From Alkalicella caledoniensis (GTDB taxonomy: Bacteria; Bacillota; Proteinivoracia; Proteinivoracales; Proteinivoracaceae), in NCBI RefSeq assembly GCF_014467015.1, contig NZ_CP058559.1, forward strand, positions 2,232,001 to 2,296,000: a DNA stretch of 64,000 nucleotides, in the 5' to 3' direction. Position numbers and translations under genes: made by a program. Positions 5,369-55,918 of the stretch are shown piece by piece; within the stretch, counting starts at the first letter, position 1, and each line of letters begins with the position of its first letter. A model generated the notes under the pieces. The model was not told the origin of the DNA and did not search any database. It was given only the letters and a program-made list of their open reading frames with translations.

Positions 5369-6868
5369 ATGTCATTTATACAAGGTACAGATAGAAAGCA
5401 AAAAACAATGTTTCCTGACTGCATAGAAGATTACATAGGTGAGGATAATCCCGTTAGGGTAATTGATGAATACGTAAAACTGGTCAATATGAGTGCATTC
5501 ACTAAATCAAAGGAACACCGCAGAGGTGCACCAGGATATCATCCCTCTGTTTTATTGAAGTTATATCTATATGGGTATGTAAATGGCATAAGATCATCTA
5601 GAAAGCTAGAAACAGAATCTCACAGGAATATAGAAGTGGTTTGGCTATTACAAAAACTAAAACCTGATTTTAAAACAATAGCTGATTTCAGGAAAGAAAA
5701 TAAAACTCAGCTAAAACAAGTTTTCAAGGATTTTACTAAGTTGTGTAAGGATCTCAAACTATTAGGCGAGGAATTCATAGCAATAGATGGGACTAAAATT
5801 CAAGCTAATAATTCAAAGAAGAATAATTTCTCAAAGAAAAAAATACAAAGACACAAACAATATATCGAAGATAAGGTTAATTCCTATCTAGATTTGTTAG
5901 AAAGCAGTGACAAAGACGATTCACCTAAACTTAAGTATACACCTGAAGAAATTCAGCAAAAAATTGAAAAACTCAAGGAGCGTAAAATTAAATTTGAAGA
6001 GTTGGAAAAAAAACTACAGGATAGCGAAAGTAATGAAATATCTACAGTTGACGAAGATGCTAGGCTTATGGACAACAAAAACAATGGTGTTACTGTAGCA
6101 TATAACATACAAACAGCTGTAGACTCTAAGCATGGTATTATAGTCGCATATGATGTTACAAACAATCCCGCAGATCAAGGTAACCTAAATTCACTTGCAG
6201 AAAAGGCTAAAGATATATTTGGAAAAAGGAAACTTGAAGTAGCGGCAGATAAAGGCTATTACCAAGCAGACGACCTCATGAAATGTGAGAGAAACGAAAC
6301 AACAGTCTATTTGCCAAAACAGTCGTATTCTAACGCCACAGGAGACAAAGATTTCTACGGAGATAAATTTACTTATGTGCCTGAAAAAGACTTATATATT
6401 TGTCCTTTGGGCCATGAATTACGCAGAATAAACCACAAATCAAAAGAACCAAAAAGAATAAAATATAGAAACTACGATGCCTGTAAAAACTGTGAATCAA
6501 AAAGCAAATGCACCACTGCAGCCAAAGGCAGGATAATAAATCGGTCACCTAACCAAGATTTTTTGGATACTATAGATGCTAGAACAGAAGCAAATATGGA
6601 CAAATACCTACAAAGGCAGATGATTGTTGAGCATCCTTATGGAACCATCAAAAGGACAATGAATGCTGGGTATTTTTTAACAAGAGGGATGGATTCTGTA
6701 ACTACAGAGACAGCCCTAGTTTTGCTAGCCTATAATTTTAAAAGAGTAATAAATATTATAGGAGTGAAAGAACTACTAAGGATATTAGTAGCTCTTAGAC
6801 CCACTTTATCATTGTATTTTTATATGTTTAAGTCATATTGCACCAAAAGACAGGAAATTTACGGCTAA
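5369..6868 (+). CDS. IS1182 family transposase (copy 1)
   Basis: This 499-residue DDE transposase catalyses cut-and-join of its own IS. The N-terminus SFIQGTDRKQKTMFPDCIED and HRRGAPGYHPSVLLKLYLYG match the IS1182 type. Likely catalytic acidic residues lie in FIAIDGTKIQAN, EVAADKGYYQADD and MIVEHPYGTIKR. A Cys cluster (CPLGHE, CKNCESKSKC) lies between the second and third. It is intact, with a GGAGAGGGG site before the ATG and a -10-like TATAAT 20-30 bp upstream. The stop codon falls inside a GGCTAATC/GATTAGCC hairpin at the IS end. Confidence 0.95.
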   Translation: MSFIQGTDRKQKTMFPDCIEDYIGEDNPVRVIDEYVKLVNMSAFTKSKEHRRGAPGYHPSVLLKLYLYGYVNGIRSSRKLETESHRNIEVVWLLQKLKPDFKTIADFRKENKTQLKQVFKDFTKLCKDLKLLGEEFIAIDGTKIQANNSKKNNFSKKKIQRHKQYIEDKVNSYLDLLESSDKDDSPKLKYTPEEIQQKIEKLKERKIKFEELEKKLQDSESNEISTVDEDARLMDNKNNGVTVAYNIQTAVDSKHGIIVAYDVTNNPADQGNLNSLAEKAKDIFGKRKLEVAADKGYYQADDLMKCERNETTVYLPKQSYSNATGDKDFYGDKFTYVPEKDLYICPLGHELRRINHKSKEPKRIKYRNYDACKNCESKSKCTTAAKGRIINRSPNQDFLDTIDARTEANMDKYLQRQMIVEHPYGTIKRTMNAGYFLTRGMDSVTTETALVLLAYNFKRVINIIGVKELLRILVALRPTLSLYFYMFKSYCTKRQEIYG

Positions 6869-14074: not shown

Positions 14075-14166
14075 CTTAGTATTAAATATCTCTTGCCTAT
14101 TTGACAAAAAATGGTTAAGCACATATAATTTATATAGAGTCATTTTTATTTTAGGGGGACGAATTT

Positions 14167-14193
14167 GTGTCAGTGAGTGAATTAACTAATTAA
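14167..14193 (+). CDS. Putative leader peptide, 8 residues (VSVSELTN)
   Basis: GTG start 8 nt after AGGGGG, then TCA GTG AGT GAA TTA ACT AAT TAA. The coding bases form the 5' arms of the downstream stem, so ribosome position would change RNA folding. It is inferred, and too short to judge by coding statistics. Confidence 0.4.
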   Translation: MSVSELTN

Positions 14194-14320
14194 GGAACTG
14201 AATAGTTCAAAAGGGTAAATCTGCAGTTATATGCAGGTGTATTTGTTGTTACCTTTTTTGAATCCTTAAGTTAATGAACACTGGCCAATAATCAACCCAT
14301 AAATATTCAGGGGATATTTG

Positions 14321-14343
14321 CCGTGCGTGTGCACGGTTTTTCT
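14321..14343 (+). terminator. Intrinsic terminator ending the structured leader
   Basis: CCGTGC-GTGT-GCACGG followed by TTTTTCT is a GC-rich stem with a U-tract. It lies about 185 nt after the predicted start site and about 290 bp before the MutS2-like gene. Confidence 0.85.
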
Positions 14344-14361
14344 ATGTCCTTTTATAAAATT

Positions 14362-25238: not shown

Positions 25239-25490
25239 AAAAATCCCCACATCTCTAAAAAAATTAGAGACGAAGGGATATACTCCGCGGTACCACTCTA
25301 GTTGGTGTATAAACACACACCCCCTTGAATCCTATAACGGAGGATAACCGTTTTAGCCTACTTAGATTTCAGCTAAACACTCACAAGTCCATTCGGGAAA
25401 GCTCCTTATGTCCATGTCCCACCAATCATGGACTCTCTGTAGCAGCAAGCTAAACCTACTAATCTTAGTCAACGCTTTGAATATTAAAAA
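25239..25490 (-). promoter_or_regulatory. T-box riboswitch leader, tryptophan-specific
   Basis: Read on the minus strand. The T-box core AGAGTGGTACCGCGG lies at 25299-25285. Stem I has the loop-E pair AGTA (25460-25457) and GAA followed by the specifier TGG (25391-25389), the Trp codon. A terminator (stem GTCTCTAA with TTAGAGA and outer ATCCC with GGGAT, then TTTTTTT) ends at about 25239. Uncharged tRNA-Trp should stabilise the antiterminator and raise trpS expression. Confidence 0.93.
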
Positions 25491-49985: not shown

Positions 49986-50585
49986 ATGTCCCAAGACAAA
50001 AAAACAATCATATACGAGGCTGCTCTAAGCCTGGTATATGACAATCAAGATTTAAGCAGAATAAAAGTTGCCGACATAGCTGAAAGGGCAAATATCGGCA
50101 AAAGTACTGTTTATGAATACTTTGAAAGTAAAGAACAAGTTATAGGTGAAGCTTTAATATATATGTTCAATAGAGGCATAGCTTCCTTTGAATTTATCAT
50201 AGAAGAAAACAAAACCTTTAAAGAAACCTATATATTACTACTAGAGGGAATCTCTGCCCTAATGAACAAAAATAGAAATCTCTTTGATTTTATGACAATG
50301 AGTCAAAAGGACCTAGATATCCATAACACAATTAAAAAGATAATGCTTCTACAATTGGAGGAAATTAGACAGAAGTATTTTAAGATGATAGAGAAATTAG
50401 TGGATAGAAGTGTAGAAGAAGGAATCATTAAAGAAAAACCTTCTAGGTACGACTGGCACATAGCCGTAATGAGCTCAATGACATGTATTTTTGTTCATAA
50501 ACAACTTAAGGAAGAATTTAATAATTTAAGTGAAGAAGAAGTCCTAGAAAAAGCATATAAAGCATATGTGAAACTATTGAGTTAA
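49986..50585 (+). CDS. TetR/AcrR family regulator of the RND pump
   Basis: 199 residues. The N-terminal helix-turn-helix reads LSRIKVADIAERANIGKSTVYEYFESKEQVI. It starts 3 bp after the RND stop, so it is cotranscribed and probably represses its own operon at 46813-46828. The C-terminal helical domain would bind a pump substrate. A strong terminator follows at once. Confidence 0.93.
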   Translation: MSQDKKTIIYEAALSLVYDNQDLSRIKVADIAERANIGKSTVYEYFESKEQVIGEALIYMFNRGIASFEFIIEENKTFKETYILLLEGISALMNKNRNLFDFMTMSQKDLDIHNTIKKIMLLQLEEIRQKYFKMIEKLVDRSVEEGIIKEKPSRYDWHIAVMSSMTCIFVHKQLKEEFNNLSEEEVLEKAYKAYVKLLS

Positions 50586-50629
50586 AAAACTAAGGGATCT
50601 CAAAACAGTTGAGATCCCTTAGTTTTTTT
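50584..50629 (+). terminator. Terminator after tetR
   Basis: ACTAAGGGATCTCAA pairs with TTGAGATCCCTTAGT around AACAG, followed by TTTTTTT. Confidence 0.92.
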
Positions 50630-50826: not shown

Positions 50827-51290
50827 TTGACATAGCCATAGAAAATAGCTATAATAAGTAACAAGAAGAAGTTAACGCAAACCACAGTTAAACTTATAAC
50901 AGAAAAACCAAAATTGATATAACAGATTTTAGCCCTTTTCTCTCTTACTGGGCTACCTTAACCAAAGTTAGTTCCAGTGGGAGAGTTTTTATAAAATATA
51001 TATAACATATAGCCCTTTTCTCTCTTGCTGGGCTACCTTACTAAAGGCTAGCTCCAGCTAGGGAGTTTTATAAGATTGCATAACATATTTGCCCTTTTCT
51101 CTCCTACTGGGCTCCTATAACAAACTAGCTCTAGTGGGAGAGTTTTTATAAAAACTATTTAGCCCTTTTCTTCTCTATGGGACTACCTAATAAAAGTTCC
51201 CATAGAGGAGTTTTAACCTCAAATATAGATTTGCCCTTTTCTCTTCTACTAGGTATACTCCAATACCTTGGTAGGGGAGTTTTTTTATTA
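50827..51290 (+). ncRNA. Consensus promoter and five tandem hairpin/U-tract units
   Basis: TTGACA (50827) and TATAAT (50850) are perfect and 17 bp apart. Five units begin with GCCCTTTTC at 50932, 51012, 51091, 51162 and 51233 (spacing 80, 79, 71, 71). Each holds a long stem ending in GAG-type bases and a T-run: CTCTCTTACTGG/CCAGTGGGAGAG, CTCTCTTGCTGG/CCAGCTAGGGAG, CTCTCCTACTGG/CTAGTGGGAGAG, CTTCTCTATGGG/CCCATAGAGGAG, and a CTACTAGGTAT/ATACCTTGGTAG core. Both sides of the stems change together. In units 1-4 the leading (A)GCCC can instead pair with GGGC inside the stem, giving a competing fold. No ORF explains the region. Probably a multi-step attenuator or an RNA of unknown function. Confidence 0.7.
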
Positions 51291-51349: not shown

Positions 51350-51420
51350 TTGACAAGACTTTTTTATTGAGATAGTATATGCATATAGGTGAATATAAGA
51401 ATATACAGTAGTATATAATA
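51350..51420 (+). promoter_or_regulatory. arsR promoter and probable ArsR operator
   Basis: TTGACA (51350) and TAGTAT (51373) are 17 bp apart. ATATGCATAT and the following GAATATAAGAATAT form AT-rich partial dyads over the -10 and start region, typical of ArsR/SmtB operators. The exact site is not resolved. Confidence 0.65.
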
Positions 51421-51434
51421 GGAAGGAGAAAGTT

Positions 51435-51761
51435 ATGATTGAGATTATTAAAGCACTTAGTGATGAGACTAGAATTAGAATAGTTAATCTTCTACTGCAC
51501 CGTGAGTTGTGTGTTTGTGATATAGAGGGTATTTTATGTATTACTCAATCCAATGCTTCAAGGCATCTTACTAAATTAAAGACAAGTGGTATTATAACCC
51601 ATGACAAAAAAGCACAATGGGTGTTTTATCAGATTAGCGAGGACTTCAGAAGAGATCACAACTTATTAATTCAATATTTAAAAGAACAAACATTTAAAAA
51701 CGTTCAATATAAAAACGATGCTGAAAAACTTAAAAACTACGCGGTAACCTGTCTTACTTAG
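51435..51761 (+). CDS. arsR: ArsR/SmtB family metalloregulator
   Basis: 108 residues with a winged helix (SNASRHLTKLKTSGIITHDKKAQWVFYQI). The metal-binding site ELCVCDIE places Cys26 and Cys28 in the DNA-recognition helix region, as in arsenite-sensing ArsR. It should repress the ars operon until As(III) or Sb(III) binds. First gene of arsR-arsD-arsA-arsA. GGAAGGAGAAAG precedes the ATG. Confidence 0.93.
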   Translation: MIEIIKALSDETRIRIVNLLLHRELCVCDIEGILCITQSNASRHLTKLKTSGIITHDKKAQWVFYQISEDFRRDHNLLIQYLKEQTFKNVQYKNDAEKLKNYAVTCLT

Positions 51762-51835
51762 GTATTTAACTAATAAGTCATATATGTGTGACTATATTAG
51801 GTTTAATATATAAAAAAATTTTAGGAGGTTTTATT

Positions 51836-52138
51836 ATGAAAATTGAGTTTTTTGATCCGCCAATGTGCTGTTCAACTGGTATCTGTGGCCCCAGTGTTGA
51901 TGAAAAATTAGTGAAACTGGGTGAAGATATAGCAAAGCTTAAACAAAAGGGAATTGAAGTGGAAAGATACATGATTTCCCAGCAACCTATGAAGTTTAGG
52001 GAAAACGAAGAAGTATATAAGCTTGTCCGTGAAAATGGAAAAGTAGTACTTCCAGTAACAGCTATTAACGGCAAAGTATTTAAATCTAAAGAATATCCAA
52101 CACTAGAAGAAATGCTAACACAGTTAGGGGTTGAGTAA
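51836..52138 (+). CDS. arsD: Arsenic metallochaperone ArsD
   Basis: 100 residues. ArsD hands As(III) to the ArsA ATPase. The Cys residues required for metal transfer are present in DPPMCCSTGICGPSVDEKL (Cys11, Cys12, Cys17, same spacing as the well-studied ArsD). The C-terminal extra Cys pairs of enteric ArsD are missing. ATG 51836 follows TTAGGAGGTTT. Its stop overlaps or abuts the start of the first arsA. Confidence 0.95.
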   Translation: MKIEFFDPPMCCSTGICGPSVDEKLVKLGEDIAKLKQKGIEVERYMISQQPMKFRENEEVYKLVRENGKVVLPVTAINGKVFKSKEYPTLEEMLTQLGVE

Positions 52139-52139
52139 T

Positions 52140-53021
52140 TTGACAAAATTCATTCTTTTCTCAGGAAAAGGTGGGGTAGGAAAAACATCCATGGCATCTA
52201 CAACTGCGGTATATAATGCAGAACTGGGTAAAAAAACATTAATAGTTACCACTGATCCAGCAGCCAACCTATCCGACGTATTTGAACAAGAAATTGGTCA
52301 TAGAATAACGAAAATAGATGGTTTAGAAAACCTTTACGCAATGGAAATAGATCCTGATCAAGCAACAGCTGAATATAAAGAAAGATCATTAGCACCCATG
52401 AGAGACTTATTTGATGAAGATTTATTAAAGGTAGCTGAAGAACAGTTAAGTGGTCCATGTACAGAAGAAATGGCGGCTTTTGATAAATTTATTGATTTCA
52501 TGGATGGGGCAGATTACGATGTGGTTATTTTCGATACTGCGCCCACAGGACATACAATCCGCTTATTGGAACTGCCTGTTGATTGGAGCAAGCATATTGA
52601 AGAAAGTTCAAAGGGTAGTGGTCAAACATGTATGGGACCTGTGGCATTGATAGAAGATAGTAAGAAAAAGTATGATGACGCCATTGCTAAGCTCAGAAAC
52701 ACTGAAATAACTAACTTTACTTTTGTAATGCAAGCAGAAGAAACATCTTTACAAGAGACTGTGAGAGCTTCAAAAGGTCTGAATGAACTAGGTATCAAAA
52801 CAAGCCAAGTCATTATAAACGGACTTATCCCTGAAGCTGAAGCTGTTGTACCCTTTTTCAAAAAGAAACACGAAAGACAGCTTGTAACAGTTGAAAAAGC
52901 AGAAGAATTATTCAAAAACCTTTCGATTAAAAAAATGGAGCTGTTTGATACAGAACTAAAAGGTGTAGATATGTTTCGAAAATGTGCCACTTTTCTATTT
53001 GGGGGGGAACAAAATGAGTAA
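52140..53021 (+). CDS. arsA: Arsenite-transporting ATPase ArsA, first half-size copy
   Basis: About 293 residues, a single ATPase domain of the ArsA/GET3 fold. P-loop FSGKGGVGKTSMAS (about 8-20), TTDPAANLSDVFEQ and FDTAPTGHTIRLLELP are diagnostic. As(III)-ligand candidates are Cys in LSGPCTEEM and GQTCMGP. Enteric ArsA fuses two such halves; here they are separate genes. Start taken at TTG 52140 (TKFILFSGKGG) because AGGGG lies about 12 bp ahead; TTG 52131 is possible. Overlaps the second copy. Confidence 0.93.
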   Translation: MTKFILFSGKGGVGKTSMASTTAVYNAELGKKTLIVTTDPAANLSDVFEQEIGHRITKIDGLENLYAMEIDPDQATAEYKERSLAPMRDLFDEDLLKVAEEQLSGPCTEEMAAFDKFIDFMDGADYDVVIFDTAPTGHTIRLLELPVDWSKHIEESSKGSGQTCMGPVALIEDSKKKYDDAIAKLRNTEITNFTFVMQAEETSLQETVRASKGLNELGIKTSQVIINGLIPEAEAVVPFFKKKHERQLVTVEKAEELFKNLSIKKMELFDTELKGVDMFRKCATFLFGGEQNE

Positions 53022-53904
53022 TTTAAACACTGTATTATACCCAGGTAAAAGTGGAAGAAAAAACATCTTTTTCTCCGGTAAAGGGGGAGTAGGTAAAACT
53101 TCCATGGCTTGTATTACTGCTGTTCAAAATGCCAAAAAAGGGTTTAAAACACTAGTTTTAACAACTGACCCCGCTGCCCATATAGGAGACGTATTAGATA
53201 AGCCTGTTACTGATAAGATTACAAAAATTGAGGGTGTAGAAAATCTTTACGCAGCTCAAATAGACCAAAAGAAAGCCACAGAAGAATACAAAGAAAAAGT
53301 GTTAAATGATGCTATGGCAAAATTTGATGAAAGCACCATAATGGCTATGAAAGAAGAACTAGAATCACCTTGTACAGAGGAGATGGCATCCTTCCAAAAG
53401 TTTGTGGAGTACGCTTCTTCTGAGGACTTTGATGTCATAGTTATTGATACAGCACCCACAGGCCATACCTTAAGAATGCTTGAACTTCCAATGGATTGGA
53501 GCAAACAAATCCAACTAAAAGCAGGAGAAAATGCCGAAATAACCGAAGAAGACAAAAAACAAAAGGCTAGATTTGATAAAGTAATATCAATGATGAAAGA
53601 TGAAGAAATGACTACCTTTGCTTTCGTTATGTACCCTGAGAAAACACCTATTATAGAAGCATATCGGGCATCTCAAGAATTGATGACCCTAGACATAAAA
53701 ACTCAACTAGTGGTAGCTAACCTGATAATTTCTGAACAAGATGCGGTAACACCTTTCTACCAAAAAAGAAGAAATATGCAACTGGGATATATTCAAGAGA
53801 TAAAGAATACATTTGATAAAGCTCATCTATTGGAAGTTCCTATGTTTGATGATGAGATTAAGGGTATGGATATGCTTAACGAAATTACTACAAAACTATT
53901 TTAA
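53014..53904 (+). CDS. arsA: Arsenite-transporting ATPase ArsA, second half-size copy
   Basis: 296 residues, homologous to the preceding gene: P-loop FSGKGGVGKTSMAC (about 20-33), TTDPAAHIGDVLD, DTAPTGHTLRMLELP and the Cys in LESPCTEEM. The pair may form a heterodimer equivalent to the A1-A2 fusion. A GGGGGGG tract precedes the ATG, which overlaps the end of the first copy by 8 bp. No ArsB or Acr3 membrane partner is found in the window. Confidence 0.94.
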   Translation: MSNLNTVLYPGKSGRKNIFFSGKGGVGKTSMACITAVQNAKKGFKTLVLTTDPAAHIGDVLDKPVTDKITKIEGVENLYAAQIDQKKATEEYKEKVLNDAMAKFDESTIMAMKEELESPCTEEMASFQKFVEYASSEDFDVIVIDTAPTGHTLRMLELPMDWSKQIQLKAGENAEITEEDKKQKARFDKVISMMKDEEMTTFAFVMYPEKTPIIEAYRASQELMTLDIKTQLVVANLIISEQDAVTPFYQKRRNMQLGYIQEIKNTFDKAHLLEVPMFDDEIKGMDMLNEITTKLF

Positions 53905-53918
53905 TTGGAGTTGATCAT

Positions 53919-53965
53919 TTGAAAGTTATTGATATCGAAATATTCGGTGTGAAAACGGAACCCGT
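53919..53965 (+). pseudogene. 5' fragment of an IS-split thioredoxin-like (candidate selenoprotein) gene
   Basis: TTG start 8 nt after GGAG and 15 bp after the arsA stop. It encodes LKVIDIEIFGVKTEP and breaks at the IS1182 target CCGT. Removing the IS and one CCGT joins it in frame to 55627-55918. The joined product would be 112 residues. Confidence 0.7.
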
Positions 53966-55622
53966 CAGACTGTGTGGCTAATCTCTAAAAACTCAAAGAT
54001 TAGCCGTAAATTTCCTGTCTTTTGGTGCAATATGACTTAAACATATAAAAATACAATGATAAAGTGGGTCTAAGAGCTACTAATATCCTTAGTAGTTCTT
54101 TCACTCCTATAATATTTATTACTCTTTTAAAATTATAGGCTAGCAAAACTAGGGCTGTCTCTGTAGTTACAGAATCCATCCCTCTTGTTAAAAAATACCC
54201 AGCATTCATTGTCCTTTTGATGGTTCCATAAGGATGCTCAACAATCATCTGCCTTTGTAGGTATTTGTCCATATTTGCTTCTGTTCTAGCATCTATAGTA
54301 TCCAAAAAATCTTGGTTAGGTGACCGATTTATTATCCTGCCTTTGGCTGCAGTGGTGCATTTGCTTTTTGATTCACAGTTTTTACAGGCATCGTAGTTTC
54401 TATATTTTATTCTTTTTGGTTCTTTTGATTTGTGGTTTATTCTGCGTAATTCATGGCCCAAAGGACAAATATATAAGTCTTTTTCAGGCACATAAGTAAA
54501 TTTATCTCCGTAGAAATCTTTGTCTCCTGTGGCGTTAGAATACGACTGTTTTGGCAAATAGACTGTTGTTTCGTTTCTCTCACATTTCATAAGGTCGTCT
54601 GCTTGGTAATAGCCTTTATCTGCTGCTACTTCAAGTTTCCTTTTTCCAAATATATCTTTAGCCTTTTCTGCAAGTGAATTTAGATTACCTTGATCTGCGG
54701 GATTGTTTGTAACATCATATGCCACTATAATACTATGCTTAGAGTCTACAGCTGTTTGTATGTTATATGCTACAGTAACACCATTGTTTTTGTTGTCCAT
54801 AAGCCTAGCATCTTCGTCAACTGTAGATATTTCATTACTTTCGCTATCCTGTAGTTTTTTTTCCAACTCTTCAAATTTAATTTTACGCTCCTTGAGTTTT
54901 TCAATTTTTTGCTGAATTTCTTCAGGTGTATACTTAAGTTTAGGTGAATCGTCTTTGTCACTGCTTTCTAACAAATCTAGATAGGAATTAACCTTATCTT
55001 CGATATATTGTTTGTGTCTTTGTATTTTTTTCTTTGAGAAATTATTCTTCTTTGAATTATTAGCTTGAATTTTAGTCCCATCTATTGCTATGAATTCCTC
55101 GCCTAATAGTTTGAGATCCTTACACAACTTAGTAAAATCCTTGAAAACTTGTTTTAGCTGAGTTTTATTTTCTTTCCTGAAATCAGCTATTGTTTTAAAA
55201 TCAGGTTTTAGTTTTTGTAATAGCCAAACCACTTCTATATTCCTGTGAGATTCTGTTTCTAGCTTTCTAGATGATCTTATGCCATTTACATACCCATATA
55301 GATATAACTTCAATAAAACAGAGGGATGATATCCTGGTGCACCTCTGCGGTGTTCCTTTGATTTAGTGAATGCACTCATATTGACCAGTTTTACGTATTC
55401 ATCAATTACCCTAACGGGATTATCCTCACCTATGTAATCTTCTATGCAGTCAGGAAACATTGTTTTTTGCTTTCTATCTGTACCTTGTATAAATGACATT
55501 TAAAATCCCCTCTCCGATATTCTATAACTTAATTATACTACAGAAAAAGGGAAAAGTACTGTATTTACAGTACTTTGTAGGCATTTTAGACATATATTAT
55601 TGTTTAATTCTCACACAGTCTG
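53966..55622 (-). mobile_element. IS1182-family insertion sequence, copy 2
   Basis: 1657 bp, with the same 11-bp terminal repeats as copy 1 (CAGACTGTGTG at 53966, CACACAGTCTG ending 55622) and a 4-bp target duplication CCGT (53962-53965, 55623-55626). It is inserted in the gene following the second arsA. Orientation is opposite to copy 1, so recombination between them would invert the 47 kb between. Confidence 0.95.
54000..55499 (-). CDS. IS1182 family transposase (copy 2)
   Basis: 499 residues, identical to copy 1 except for a visible Gly-to-Ser change (KHSIIVAYDV instead of KHGIIVAYDV). All candidate catalytic regions (AIDGTK, AADKGYY, IVEHPYGT) are intact, so it should be active. It is transcribed against the ars operon it interrupts. 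Confidence 0.95.
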   Translation of the reverse strand: MSFIQGTDRKQKTMFPDCIEDYIGEDNPVRVIDEYVKLVNMSAFTKSKEHRRGAPGYHPSVLLKLYLYGYVNGIRSSRKLETESHRNIEVVWLLQKLKPDFKTIADFRKENKTQLKQVFKDFTKLCKDLKLLGEEFIAIDGTKIQANNSKKNNFSKKKIQRHKQYIEDKVNSYLDLLESSDKDDSPKLKYTPEEIQQKIEKLKERKIKFEELEKKLQDSESNEISTVDEDARLMDNKNNGVTVAYNIQTAVDSKHSIIVAYDVTNNPADQGNLNSLAEKAKDIFGKRKLEVAADKGYYQADDLMKCERNETTVYLPKQSYSNATGDKDFYGDKFTYVPEKDLYICPLGHELRRINHKSKEPKRIKYRNYDACKNCESKSKCTTAAKGRIINRSPNQDFLDTIDARTEANMDKYLQRQMIVEHPYGTIKRTMNAGYFLTRGMDSVTTETALVLLAYNFKRVINIIGVKELLRILVALRPTLSLYFYMFKSYCTKRQEIYG

Positions 55623-55626
55623 CCGT

Positions 55627-55918
55627 TGCATCAGCATCTTGTGGTTGAGGCCCTAGCGTAAGCTGTGGTCCCGGTGAGGAACCAACAATGTTAGAGATGT
55701 TTGAAGAAATGAACGAATTCTTAGTTAAAAAAGGCATGAAAGATAAAGTAAACGTCAAGTTTATTGATGTAATGGAAGATGACTTGACAGGATATGAAAA
55801 TGAAGTCGATATTTTAAATCAGGGATATCCATTGCCCATCACATTTATAGAAAAACAAGCAGCCTTTGCAGGGAAAGTAGACAATCAAAAACTCTACTCT
55901 ATTTTAAAAAGATTCTAG
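55627..55918 (+). pseudogene. 3' part of the IS-split thioredoxin-like gene with in-frame TGA (candidate Sec codon)
   Basis: Continuing the frame of 53919-53965, this part reads VASASCG, then TGA (55646-55648), then GPSVSCGPGEEPTMLEMFEE and on to YPLPITFIEKQAAFAGKV..ILKRF. The YPLPITF segment looks like the cis-Pro strand of thioredoxin folds, and Cys21-Gly22-TGA23 sits where the redox motif should be. A GG-loop hairpin lies 18-36 nt downstream. If TGA is selenocysteine, the intact gene encoded a 112-residue redox selenoprotein of the ars operon. Alone, an ATG at 55688 could yield 76 residues without the motif. Now disrupted. Confidence 0.7.
55666..55684 (+). promoter_or_regulatory. Candidate bacterial SECIS element
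   Basis: TGGTCC pairs with GG-A-ACCA (one bulged A) around the loop CGGTGA, whose GG sits near the loop start. The loop begins 23 nt after the TGA, within the usual bacterial SECIS distance. A second, closer stem (AGC-GTAA-GCT) is also possible. Confidence 0.5.

Follow-up and report, generated by a model that had tools for sequence, protein, structure and literature searches.

A putative small RNA gene of Alkalicella caledoniensis in which a single promoter precedes five tandem seed-terminator modules

Introduction

Few G-rich stretches occur in low-GC Bacillota other than at ribosome-binding sites, a fact that small RNAs (sRNAs) exploit when their exposed C-rich regions block translation (PMC9410917, PMC4132741). 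Exposed regions of this kind, directed at Shine-Dalgarno sequences, have been described as a hallmark of the sRNAs of Firmicutes (PMC9410917). FsrA, RsaE/RoxS and IsrR bind G-rich ribosome-binding sites (PMC9410917). The multicopy sRNAs LhrC1-5 of Listeria monocytogenes carry a CUCCC...UUUU motif in the single-stranded stretch between two stem-loops (and also in loops), and their targets are blocked at the Shine-Dalgarno sequence (PMC4132741).

Here we describe an array of five hairpin units between tetR and arsR of Alkalicella caledoniensis, found in a 64,000-nucleotide stretch of its genome (hereafter the window). The predicted array RNA resembles LhrC1-5 in its five copies, in being a short, low-GC RNA with a terminator hairpin at its end (PMC4132741), and in placing a C-rich plus UUUU motif in a single-stranded stretch beside the terminator stem; however, each LhrC copy has its own promoter, whereas here one promoter serves five modules. 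With FsrA, RsaE/RoxS and IsrR the RNA shares exposed C-rich regions beside hairpins and a promoter and terminator of its own (PMC9410917), but its C-rich regions are repeats of one module, terminator included. It differs from all of these in lacking a relevant Rfam match at the gathering threshold or at E<5, in keeping with the original prediction, which knew of no described class with this layout. We conclude that it probably represents a new sRNA family, of a known kind but narrow in distribution, which in this genome has five seed-terminator modules in tandem after a single promoter.

Results

Promoter and boundaries

The element is bounded upstream by the terminator of tetR (Table 1) and downstream by the T7 run at 51280-51286. 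Its promoter, of the sigma-A type, matches the consensus at 12/12 positions and is thus as perfect as first claimed; two perfect TTGACA-N17-TATAAT sites occur in the whole window, against 0.03 by chance. Only this one strong promoter precedes the array: a second promoter-like site, inside it, is a 9/12 match, which is the chance level. The view of the original prediction that the promoter serves an RNA element is supported, and transcription from it is probable. Alignment with the relatives described below places two common motifs in the leader, the short AACCACA and TATAACAG. The array RNA, like that of the relatives, would end at its own intrinsic terminator, as a stand-alone sRNA gene should; a search for a conserved open reading frame within it gave none, and it has no coding capacity.

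Table 1. Features of the array and its surroundings (positions in the window)
Feature	Position	Strand	Basis
tetR intrinsic terminator, boundary of element	50584..50628	+	20-bp hairpin and T-run
RNA promoter, TTGACA-N17-TATAAT	50827..50855	+	12/12; orthologous site of two relatives likewise 12/12
RNA 5' leader, ~68 nt (predicted start site)	50862..50929	+	alignment with relatives
Unit 1: unpaired TAGCCCTTTT, hairpin 50940-50985, T5	50930..50990	+	repeat alignment, folding
Unit 2: TAGCCCTTTT, hairpin 51020-51065, T4	51010..51069	+	repeat alignment, folding
Unit 3: TTGCCCTTTT, hairpin 51099-51142, T5	51089..51147	+	repeat alignment, folding
Unit 4: TAGCCCTTTT, hairpin 51170-51210, T4	51160..51214	+	repeat alignment, folding
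Unit 5: TTGCCCTTTT, hairpin 51241-51279, T7; likely main terminator	51231..51286	+	identity to relatives, T-run score
arsR promoter-like site, TTGACA-N17-TAGTAT, separate from RNA promoter	51350..51378	+	sequence match
arsR, neighbour gene	51435..51761	+	PF01022; orthologues beside single-unit RNA 61-64% identical

The other perfect promoter of the window is followed by a predicted intergenic RNA of ~200 nt (14101-14345, plus strand), with a polyprenyl synthetase-like gene on one side and mutS2 on the other. Its predicted fold is a long rod with interruptions (z -3.7), and hairpins resembling terminators form its end; its shape is like that of 6S RNA, yet Rfam gives no such match. Elsewhere in the window (25263-25481, minus strand) a T-box leader (Rfam RF00230, E 4e-29) precedes a gene resembling that for tryptophanyl-tRNA synthetase.

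Sequence and structure of the five units

The units start at 50928, 51008, 51087, 51158 and 51229, that is, at spacings of 80, 79, 71 and 71 bp, with all copies in register. Each opens with an invariant unpaired 10-mer (GCCCTTTTCT); a hairpin with a stem of 12 bp or more follows, and then a T-run. All five occurrences of GCCCTTTTCT in the window fall in the array, where 0.21 would be expected and no shuffle reached five. Folding gives z from -3.2 to -4.05 for single units and z -5.1 for the whole 431-nt RNA.

Analysis of the stems shows that they vary while remaining paired. RNAalifold finds 15 pairs common to the five units, 10 of them with double changes that preserve pairing. When the five units are taken together with the two homologues described below, 98.8% of cells in a 12-bp stem are paired and 7/12 pairs show double changes – the compensatory changes including G-U pairs – a result that 0/500 shuffles matched in either respect; with slid-partner controls, pairing falls to 40-54%. 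The unpaired CCCTTTT that precedes the stem behaves differently: 7/7 of its columns are invariant across all seven units, compared to 4/12 columns in the 5' arm of the stem (Fisher p = 0.013, a value to be read with the kinship of the copies in mind). In the RNA, a C-rich motif is exposed beside the hairpins, the invariant CCCUUUUCU, whose CCCUUUU is unpaired before the stem in 7/7 units. Because CCCTTTT is invariant while the stem varies with compensation, selection appears to hold sequence in the unpaired part and structure in the stem. The original prediction had given this spacing and this layout, and had read the varying but paired stems as a sign of selection on RNA structure: each of these points bears up under the alignment, folding and shuffling.

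Homologues in related genomes

The original prediction proposed that a covariance model of the five units be run against other genomes. Among 60 relatives searched, such a model has matches in two, both from another genus of the same family and both with a single unit (E = 9e-6 and 1.3e-5, the model having been built without these homologues), whose stem covaries with those of the array. Both homologues are at the orthologous place – SDR, RND pump, tetR, RNA, arsR, followed by nagA and nagB in the opposite orientation – and gene order in the window is the same except for the ars genes and an insertion sequence. Each is preceded by a TTGACA-N17-TATAAT promoter with 12/12 matches and has a single 16-bp terminator; because these bound it, the relatives' RNA should be ~125 nt long, comprising a 5' hairpin, the single-stranded ACUCCCUUUUCUC and the terminator.

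When the two single-unit genomes are compared with each other, the RNA from promoter to terminator is 92.8% identical, as against 72.6% for the flank upstream of the promoter (Fisher p = 7e-6), 60.3% for the flank downstream to arsR, and 80.2% for the arsR coding sequence (63% at third positions); the conserved transcript includes the leader. The conserved block is therefore the RNA gene, and the sequence comparison shows it to be under purifying selection.

No further copy above chance was found with the five-unit model in the 3.7-Mb genome of A. caledoniensis itself (the next match, E = 0.48, is inside a gene), and 398 genomes of the phylum yielded no additional member. In the two genomes of a third genus of the family nothing stood out even at E<=10, and the RNA is absent from 26 loci with a related arsR in named genomes. 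Weaker matches to the model were rejected as due to chance or coding sequence: L007 and L013 are inside genes, and L053 is in terminator-like sequence after an unrelated gene. Carriers of the RNA are thus known from three genomes only, the window genome and the two single-unit relatives.

Identity to the relatives' unit is 69-71% for unit 5 and 48-64% for units 1-4. T-run scores also put unit 5 first: 5.35 for unit 5, 4.81 in the relatives, and 3.2-4.1 for units 1-4. Unit 5 is thus both the nearest to the unit of the relatives and the one with the best T-run. Most simply, it would represent the ancestral terminator, and units 1-4 would be later tandem duplicates, placed upstream and with shorter T-runs.

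Position relative to the ars genes

A promoter-like site for arsR lies downstream of the RNA in all three genomes, its equivalents in the relatives being TTGACT-N17-TAGCAT and TTGACT-N17-TAATAT. In both single-unit relatives, arsR is the only ars gene at this locus. That the array stands before an ars operon is fortuitous and particular to the window genome, in which arsR and nagA are separated by arsD, two arsA genes and an insertion sequence.

The ars cluster of the window (51435-55918) consists of arsR, arsD and two arsA genes; in the stretch up to the insertion sequence, neither an arsB nor an acr3 pump can be recognised. DDE transposase genes are found at 5369-6868 (plus strand) and 54000-55499 (minus strand, between the ars genes and nagA): their products, of 499 aa, are nearly identical, and the genes are inverted relative to each other and ~49 kb apart.

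Discussion

The reading that we consider probable is that the array is a stand-alone gene for a trans-acting, C-rich sRNA of the Firmicutes type (in the style of RsaE, FsrA, LhrC and IsrR), in which a module of seed plus terminator has been multiplied to five. One strong promoter between tetR and arsR would drive a short RNA in which an unpaired C-rich seed (GCCCUUUUCU in the window, CUCCCUUUUCUC in the relatives) lies directly 5' of an intrinsic-terminator hairpin, the loop of which also has a CC motif. In A. caledoniensis duplication of the seed-plus-hairpin module, on the upstream side of unit 5 as the ancestral terminator, would have brought the number of copies to five. Because the internal T-runs are weaker, RNA polymerase would stop at units 1-4 only partly, leaving a ladder of RNAs that carry between one and five seeds and are up to ~430 nt in length. 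This part of the reading we hold tentatively: a nested ladder would make a multi-headed sRNA, with terminator strength setting dose and valency.

Like other C-rich sRNAs of Firmicutes, the seeds would most likely pair with ribosome-binding sites, which are rich in G, on target mRNAs and so block translation, and additional copies would increase dosage or avidity. Base-pairing of this kind is the most likely function, and dose or valency the most likely reason for the copies, because the C-rich motif is of the class, and in the position, seen in known sRNAs, and because Hfq is encoded in 5/5 genomes of the family (the window genome included). The seed in the window genome is GCCC and not the classical UCCC. 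Exact complements of the seed (AGAAAAGGGC) are, genome-wide, nearly all within genes, with 0 at a ribosome-binding site; GAAAAGGG is in mild excess just 5' of ATG when compared to a reversed-pattern control (68 vs 46, 72 vs 55 and 66 vs 53).

The best local target candidate is the ribosome-binding site of nagB, second best of 48 local start regions. It was rejected: 58/1000 shuffled seeds were equally good, and the site is not conserved in the relatives.

If the repeated feature were instead a binding site for protein, the hairpins would titrate CsrA, as do CsrB and RsmZ, or an unknown protein recognising CCCUUUUC together with the stem. Many hairpins repeated in a single RNA are indeed typical of CsrB/RsmZ-type sponges; an identical single-stranded motif recurs beside each stem, multiplication of sites suits titration, and CsrA is encoded in the window genome. 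However, the hairpin loops of the aligned units are without the GGA motif that CsrA sponges display, and the relatives have a single hairpin with one site only, which would therefore make a poor sponge. We regard titration as doubtful.

Plain insulation, by which tandem intrinsic terminators shield arsR from transcription originating at the strong promoter or at tetR and no regulatory RNA is made, accounts for the fact that all units are terminator-like, with unit 5 a good terminator. It nevertheless seems unlikely: tetR already ends in a strong terminator of its own, units 1-4 have weakened T-runs, contrary to what insulation should select for, an invariant unpaired CCCTTTTCT is unnecessary for termination, a strong and conserved promoter would be purposeless, and the entire transcript, leader included, is conserved.

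The array lies upstream of arsR and in the same direction, and its terminator-like hairpins, 5' of a same-strand gene, are reminiscent of attenuators and of T-box or riboswitch leaders. The original prediction had accordingly suggested serial attenuation of the ars genes, with AGCCC pairing to GGGCU in most units as a fold exclusive of the terminator. Such pairing is possible in units 1-3 (~-7 kcal/mol) and partially in unit 4, and to this extent that claim stands; it is absent from unit 5 (-2.5) and from both relatives (+1.3), is far weaker than the terminators (-19 to -27), and at 74.3% is no better than in shuffled sequence (70.1 +- 3.2%). Nor is there, unlike in attenuators and leaders of these classes, a conserved antiterminator. 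The promoter-like site of arsR is 3' of the array, the relatives carry the RNA yet have no arsDA – the downstream ars operon being not conserved – and possess a single terminator in place of several; furthermore, arsR orthologues in two other genomes of the family have no such RNA upstream. Serial attenuators or a riboswitch-like leader, switching in each unit between AGCCC/GGGCU and the terminator, are thus very improbable, and the suggestion of attenuation finds no support: a free-standing sRNA gene fits the layout better.

It is scarcely credible that the array is a repeat acting at the level of DNA (a mobile or recombination element, or iteron-like binding sites) with no function as RNA. 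Its imperfect tandem repeats with inverted arms would suit such an element, but the five copies are all at the array with none elsewhere in the genome, blastn of the element against plasmid and phage collections gives no match, compensatory changes include G-U pairs, and both T-run and promoter are strand-specific. A type III toxin-antitoxin system (repeat RNA before a toxin gene) is rejected because the gene after the array is arsR.

The case for a free-standing sRNA gene carries a warning, namely that terminators in tandem ahead of a resistance operon are not necessarily attenuators. If expressed as proposed, the RNA would define an sRNA family that, within the genomes searched, is confined to two genera belonging to a single family of Bacillota. 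With forms of one and of five modules at the same locus, the multiplication of sRNA copies – and its effects on dose, valency and target spread – would become testable within one transcript.
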